The notes beneath the pieces are model-generated. The model made no database searches. It was given only the letters and a program-made list of their open reading frames with translations, and was not told the origin of the DNA. From assembly GCF_000518245.1 (NCBI RefSeq), contig NZ_JADF01000008.1:152043-216042 (forward strand): a stretch of 64,000 nucleotides of DNA, given 5' to 3'. Source of the stretch: Brachyspira alvinipulli ATCC 51933 (GTDB taxonomy: Bacteria; Spirochaetota; Brachyspiria; Brachyspirales; Brachyspiraceae). The position numbers and the translations under genes were made by a program. Below, piece after piece: positions 33,056 to 33,223 of this stretch. Every line of letters begins with the position of its first letter. Positions within the stretch are counted from its first letter, which is position 1.

Positions 33056-33127
33056 AAAAAAAGACTCATGCATAAATAAACTATCAAAGCATTAAAATAC
33101 TTTAAAAGTTTATTTATACTTGAGTCT
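33056..33127 (-). terminator. Riboswitch-controlled terminator of the P-type ATPase leader
   Basis: A nearly perfect 20-bp stem (33062-33081 with 33108-33127, two or three mismatches), whose loop contains its own AAAGUAUU/AAUGCUUU hairpin, is followed by a run of seven T on the minus strand (33062-33056). The outer strand at 33116-33127 is the same one that closes the riboswitch P1 helix, so the two structures are mutually exclusive. This gives a transcriptional ON switch. Confidence 0.85.
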
Positions 33128-33223
33128 CATTAATTAAGGCTAGCCAAACTCTAATAATTCAAGAGCTGCGATGTTGACTTTGCCACGTAAAATAAATTAC
33201 GTCAACTACTCCCTCATGAGTAT
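33116..33223 (-). ncRNA. yybP-ykoY (manganese) riboswitch aptamer
   Basis: Read on the minus strand, the leader of the P-type ATPase gene contains GAGGGAGUAG (33215-33206) and GUCAACAU (33178-33171), with a GUUGAC/GUCAAC helix closing an ACGUAA hairpin. GGCUAGCC (33145-33138) and a 3' UGAGACUC follow. AUACU and UGAG at the 5' end pair with CUCA and AGUAU at the 3' end to form P1. The order matches the yybP-ykoY family (L1 GGGAGUAG, L3 CAACAU), which binds Mn2+ and activates metal exporters. The match is by eye; a covariance-model scan would settle it. Confidence 0.8.

Follow-up and report, generated by a model that had tools for sequence, protein, structure and literature searches.

In a window of 64,000 nucleotides from the genome of Brachyspira alvinipulli ATCC 51933 (the whole stretch of DNA analysed here), a P-type ATPase gene (30378-33017, minus strand) is preceded by an RNA leader element, which lies on the minus strand from about 33221 to 33056. 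The strand had been left unstated when a riboswitch was first predicted here; leader and ATPase share the minus strand, and all leader features below are read on it. In the 5' to 3' direction, a promoter is followed by UACUCAUGAGGGAGUAGUU, the hairpin ACGUAAUUUAUUUUACGU, GGCAAAGUCAACAUCGCAGCUCU...AGAGUUUGGCUAGCCUUAAUUAAUGAGACUCA, a long hairpin, a run of seven uridines (U7), and the start of the ATPase. The promoter (33251-33279) is of the sigma-70 type, with TTGACA and TATTAT separated by 17 nucleotides and an extended -10 TG; this predicted promoter agrees with the consensus at 11 of 12 positions and is conserved in most Brachyspira as TTGACATTATTTT...TGTTATA. No second copy of the element was found in the window genome. 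The divergent neighboring open reading frame (33539-34531, plus strand) encodes a lipoprotein-like product of 330 amino acids without a Pfam match, and a few genes downstream of the ATPase lies a gene for an RseC/MucC-family protein (PF04246; 27769-28197, minus strand).

Upstream of the long hairpin, positions 33121-33216 form a yybP-ykoY-type aptamer composed of P1, L1, P1.2, P2, P3.1, L3, and P3.2, as delineated with the covariance models R1 and R2 described below. The P1 helix is short, with only four strong pairs: its 5' strand UGAG (33213-33216) pairs with CUCA (33121-33124), and 99% of the aligned cells are paired. P1 and P1.2 enclose GGGAGUA opposite GAGA, the arrangement that constitutes L1 of the yybP-ykoY class; both the 5' strand of this A-minor/metal-contact loop (GGAGUA, 33207-33212) and its 3' strand (GAGA, 33125-33128) are invariant in Brachyspira, the former motif recurring in the Escherichia coli mntP and alx leaders and the latter in E. 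coli mntP as GGCGAGACC. In P1.2, GUU (33204-33206) pairs with AAU (33131-33129), and all three pairs covary; this helix gives the clearest covariation of the element, RUU/AAU in Brachyspira versus GCA/UGC and GCU/AGC in other spirochetes. The P2 hairpin ACGUA...UACGU (33185-33202; 33202-33198 with 33189-33185) shows changes on both sides in four of five pairs, as does the P3.2 stem-loop (33147-33167; 33167-33163 with 33151-33147). Between them, the P3.1 strand GUCA (33175-33178) pairs with UGGC (33146-33143) in 100% of cells, with UG/GC and CG/GU variants, and together with the 7-nucleotide bulge L3 (ACAUCGC, 33168-33174) this helix is exactly the consensus P3 of the Rfam family RF00080. L3 thus displays the class feature of a bulge starting with ACA after a GUCA/UGGC helix and containing an invariant adenosine, and ACA(A)U is retained in every aligned member. 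The Xanthomonas oryzae riboswitch carries the bulge ACA48UACU, in which A48 (A41 in Lactococcus lactis) contributes its N7 to Mn2+ (PMC6754395), and A33172 corresponds to this invariant Mn2+-binding adenosine. The P4 helix of crystallized four-way junctions is absent, and 33142-33132 serve as a linker; P4 is also missing from many relatives that precede MntP and appears to be carried by one (L141), so it is variable and not defining. The original prediction was right in placing the motifs GGGAGUAG (33213-33206), GUCAACAU (33178-33171), and GGCUAGCC (33145-33138) in such an aptamer, but not in the register of the closing P1: the one helix matching its description, CUCAU (33220-33216) with AUGAG (33130-33126), was rejected, with covariation not above that of shuffled alignments (108/500) and pairing broken in relatives. 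A hairpin UACUC/GAGUA (33222-33218 with 33211-33207) can also be drawn; it is invariant in Brachyspira, would hide the L1 motif, and is possibly a ligand-free alternative fold. The similar ACUC/GAGU hairpin over L1 proposed by RNAalifold is not claimed here, being invariant in Brachyspira and lost in several clostridial leaders.

A DNA search recovered the leader in 24 of 26 Brachyspira genomes, always directly before the start of the same ATPase. Of the two leader-less genomes, one (G019) lacks the ATPase too, as does G066, where both ATPase and riboswitch are missing; the other (G002) is fragmented into 990 contigs and contains the ATPase only as a C-terminal piece at the start of a contig. 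In two sister genera of the same family, the ATPase (66% and 62% identical; L191 in G057 and L192 in G146) was found without the riboswitch upstream. A tree of the ATPases places Brachyspira with some of the riboswitch-linked clostridial pumps; its order relative to the riboswitch-less sister genera is unsettled, and we make no claim of transfer. Within Brachyspira, the aptamer alignment shows invariant GAGGGAGUA, CAAC-AUCGC, UUGG, and CCUUAAUUAAUGAGACUC between variable hairpin loops, and 99.1% of cells pair in the corrected structure, with changes on both sides in four pairs. We then ran the covariance model R1, built from Brachyspira sequences only, on 296 spirochete genomes. Outside Brachyspira it matched eight genomes from two other spirochete families (E values of 1.2e-12 to 3.9e-7), and the downstream genes, which played no part in building R1, could be read for seven of these leaders (L059-L064 and L034): five encode MntP and two GDT1/UPF0016, both established families of Mn2+ exporters. 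Five of the encoded proteins were compared with Pfam, which identified three as Mntp (PF02659; L060, the same place as L032, L062, and L064) and two as PF01169 (L059 and L061), and the genes after L063 and L034 were assigned to MntP by near-identity to the proteins so tested. When seven of the leaders from outside the genus were aligned with those of Brachyspira (alignment A2), changes on both sides were seen in 11 of 21 pairs, 98.2% of cells were paired, and none of 500 shuffles reached the covariation score.

Similar leaders also occur beyond the spirochetes. A scan of GTDB genomes with the pattern GAGGGAGTA...GTCAACAT...TGGC returned at least 80 loci, mostly in Clostridia. Among the 80 matches listed, the next gene encodes MntP in 52, a P-type ATPase in 15, and GDT1 in 5, and eight have no downstream match, four of these with fewer than 300 bases downstream. 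Mn2+ homeostasis genes of these three kinds thus recur downstream across the relatives, and four of the listed ATPases are 52 to 59% identical to that of the window. Of the 80 listed sites, all but a few are scored by the combined model R2, at up to 82.7 bits, which is not independent evidence because the pattern selects for part of the model; the genes downstream of the sites are. On E. coli, R2 gave weak scores for mntP (13.1 bits, the best match of its locus) and alx (9.6 bits), whereas the register within L1 is exact (mntP, GGGAGUAGC...GCGAGAC; alx, GGGAGUAAC...GUGAGAC). The tie to the proteobacterial members therefore rests on this register and on intermediate sequences.

The Rfam model itself gave a discordant answer. 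In the covariance-model scan suggested with the original prediction, RF00080 scored 13.8 bits (E value of 0.067; 301 nucleotides; cut-off, 45 bits) in a relaxed search, the aptamer alone scored 11.2 bits, and a plain Rfam scan returned nothing over threshold. Read alone, this result would exclude the element from the class, and comparative evidence is therefore needed. At its gathering score, RF00080 (Rfam 15) misses all 12 related leaders tested (L068, L070, L077, L083, L089, L093, L101, L105, L108, L121, L125, and L147), every one of which precedes MntP, GDT1, or a P-type ATPase, and the cut-off was passed in only two of the control genomes with matches. With every one of these relatives passed over by that model and cut-off, its failure here is uninformative; the gathering threshold serves curation and does not define the class. 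The model opens with an unpaired stretch where P1 is expected. Its scores on relatives (L131, a Cellulosilyticum ATPase leader, 30.3 bits and E = 6e-7; G081/L032, a spirochete mntP leader, 30 bits and E = 2e-6 per genome) give a link to the Rfam family that is significant through intermediates. Matches to plant microRNA and small RNA families were dismissed as chance hits of AU-rich terminator hairpins. The current model of a major riboswitch class thus overlooks many real members, and silence of RF00080 does not equal absence of a riboswitch.

Based on the covariation, on metal-core motifs that keep the register seen in E. coli mntP and alx, and on the relatives that precede Mn exporters, we assign the element, at a probability of roughly 90%, to the yybP-ykoY class of Mn2+-sensing riboswitches, with a P-type cation-export ATPase as the gene that it switches on at the level of transcription; the class originally predicted is thereby upheld. 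We infer from these features that the aptamer binds Mn2+, that the response is ON, and that Mn2+ is a substrate of the pump. The regulated gene encodes a P2-type Ca2+/Mn2+ ATPase of 879 amino acids with the expected Pfam matches and hallmarks (the DKTGT phosphorylation motif, PEGLP in TM4, and N..MD in TM6). It scores 697 bits against TIGR01517, the PMCA-type Ca2+ ATPase model (cut-off, 507), and 637 bits against the PMR1-type model, under that model's cut-off. Among solved structures in the PDB, its best relative over the whole protein is Listeria LMCA1, whereas over TM5-TM6 the best are structures of human SPCA1, with TM6 LWINIIMDGPPA identical over that stretch. SPCA1 and PMR1 pump both Ca2+ and Mn2+. 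The kinship with SPCA1 over TM5-TM6 makes dual Ca2+/Mn2+ specificity plausible. In the window genome, searches for MntP, GDT1, and TerC returned no match, and the only CDF-type exporter found (L193; G000:C2:214516-215088) may be MntE-like or export Zn/Fe; the pump is therefore a leading candidate for Mn2+ export, a role that is well supported by context. It would go considerably further, and we consider it unlikely, to propose that riboswitch and pump are the main or only dedicated defense of Brachyspira against Mn2+ (and Ca2+) overload, replacing MntP, GDT1, and TerC, and that the AU-rich, P4-less aptamer has a shifted metal selectivity or a dual Mn/Ca response.

The PMCA-type call for the ATPase invites the reading that a yybP-ykoY-like aptamer senses Ca2+, or another divalent ion, instead of Mn2+ and controls a Ca2+ pump. 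The Streptococcus pneumoniae mgtA riboswitch is described as Mn/Ca-sensing (PMC11434433), and the Brachyspira aptamer has ACAUCGC in place of ACAUACU in L3 and A-U in place of G-C in P1.2. However, the adenosine that serves as N7 donor is retained, ACAUCG variants of L3 also occur in the clostridial relatives L078 and L136, and the relatives, among the matches listed, mostly precede the Mn exporters MntP and GDT1. We therefore regard a sensor of Ca2+ or another ion as quite improbable, and sensing of Mn2+ as the preferred reading.

How Mn2+ sensing would be converted into gene control is suggested by the downstream half of the leader. An intrinsic terminator hairpin (33063-33128; 8 plus 13 bp and an apical stem) is followed by U7 (33062-33056), in good agreement with the 20-bp terminator originally proposed, the stem having 21 pairs. 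Its 8-bp base is formed by GAGACUCA/UGAGUCUU and its 13-bp upper stem is AU-rich; in isolation, 33056-33130 folds with -33.5 kcal/mol. The stem is kept in 24 genomes, and across these 24 Brachyspira species 99.8% of its cells are paired, with changes on both sides in four pairs. Compared with shuffled sequences, the leader as a whole is much more stably folded (z = -8.2), mostly owing to this terminator. Right after the U-tract, AUGCA (33051-33055) is kept in most Brachyspira and could pair with UGCAU (33068-33072) in the 3' arm of the terminator. In its 5' arm, the terminator builds its base from the 3' strands of L1 (GAGA) and P1 (CUCA). The overlap noted in the original prediction therefore holds, though in another register, and since the two 3' strands coincide exactly with the basal 8 bp, the case for an ON-switch by antitermination, in which a ligand-stabilized P1 blocks the terminator, is strengthened by the correction. 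By eye, this terminator/P1 design recurs in three clostridial leaders of ATPase genes, L131, L070, and L147.

Folding energies bear on the direction of the switch. When aptamer and P1 are enforced without ligand, the leader reaches -43.0 kcal/mol compared with -59.4 for the best fold; at this cost of about 16 kcal/mol, termination would be the default and antitermination kinetic and ligand-assisted. An aptamer lacking P1 can coexist with the terminator at -52.2 kcal/mol, below the -43.0 with P1 enforced, so that ligand-free thermodynamics favor termination, a point in favor of the same aptamer being an OFF-switch or acting chiefly through translation or RNA stability. Against this, the 3' strands of P1 and L1 form the terminator base. 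In L. lactis this layout produces an ON-switch: P1.1 has been shown to compete with the terminator and to nucleate ahead of it (PMC11087558). Moreover, the terminator and U-tract are retained in 24 genomes, and the ribosome site is located downstream of the terminator. We thus consider an OFF-switch, or control mainly at those other levels, very improbable, and it is most likely that the riboswitch turns the pump on at high manganese. At low Mn2+, GAGACUCA (33128-33121) would form the base of the long hairpin that runs into U7, and RNA polymerase would stop short of the ATPase. When Mn2+ is high, the ion would sit between L1 and L3, with A33172 as a soft ligand, and stabilize P1.2, L1, and P1; P1 and L1 would then take over GAGACUCA, blocking the 8-bp base. 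The remaining upper hairpin would lie about 9 nucleotides from the U-tract, where termination should be abolished, and RNA polymerase would continue into the pump gene. That the leader is simply a conserved terminator or attenuator resembling the Mn2+ motifs by chance, as its Rfam score under the cut-off and the folding of the aptamer portion alone, no better than shuffles (z = -1.5), might suggest, is already refuted by covariation in 11 pairs, by the Brachyspira-only model independently recovering Mn-exporter leaders, and by the gene context of the 80 listed loci.

Brachyspira, gut spirochetes with few described RNA regulators, thus gain a putative Mn2+ sensor, and the pump becomes a candidate for Mn2+ export in a genome that yielded no match to MntP, GDT1, or TerC. 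The genus-wide conservation, the absence of the riboswitch from two sister genera in which the ATPase is retained, and the blind spot of the Rfam model are modestly unexpected. Among the loci listed, close counterparts are the riboswitch-ATPase pairs of [Clostridium] asparagiforme (L147), Clostridium sp. KNHs205 (L070), and Hungatella (L105), whose ATPases are 56 to 59% identical to that of the window; their riboswitches have nearly the same terminator arm, GAGACUCA-UGUAUA, and an L3 nearer the general consensus (ACAUACU). The MntP and GDT1 leaders of other spirochetes and Clostridia (L059-L064 and L068-L147), found with Brachyspira-derived models or motifs, share L1, P1.2, P3.1, L3, and the P1/terminator layout, but mostly control MntP and mostly have ACAUACU in L3, and the spirochete members contain G-C in P1.2. 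Among characterized systems, L. lactis yoaB (PDB 4Y1I; PMC9190785, PMC11087558) is likewise built on P1.1 versus an intrinsic terminator and on an L1/L3 metal core with the invariant adenosine. Unlike the Brachyspira element, it has P4 and forms a four-way junction. Its P1.1 is longer, and its P1.2 is G-C rather than A-U. In Streptococcus, a Mn-sensing yybP-ykoY riboswitch that activates a Mn2+/Ca2+ ATPase is attributed to Martin et al. 2019 in PMC11434433. As described there, S. pneumoniae mgtA has a Mn-sensing leader of the same class before a Mn2+/Ca2+ P-type ATPase, a likeness drawn from its description, and in another phylum. With L. lactis yoaB as a second case of a Mn2+ ON-switch (PMC9190785), control of Mn/Ca P-type ATPases by riboswitches is an established arrangement, and the reassignment of the Brachyspira pump has precedent.
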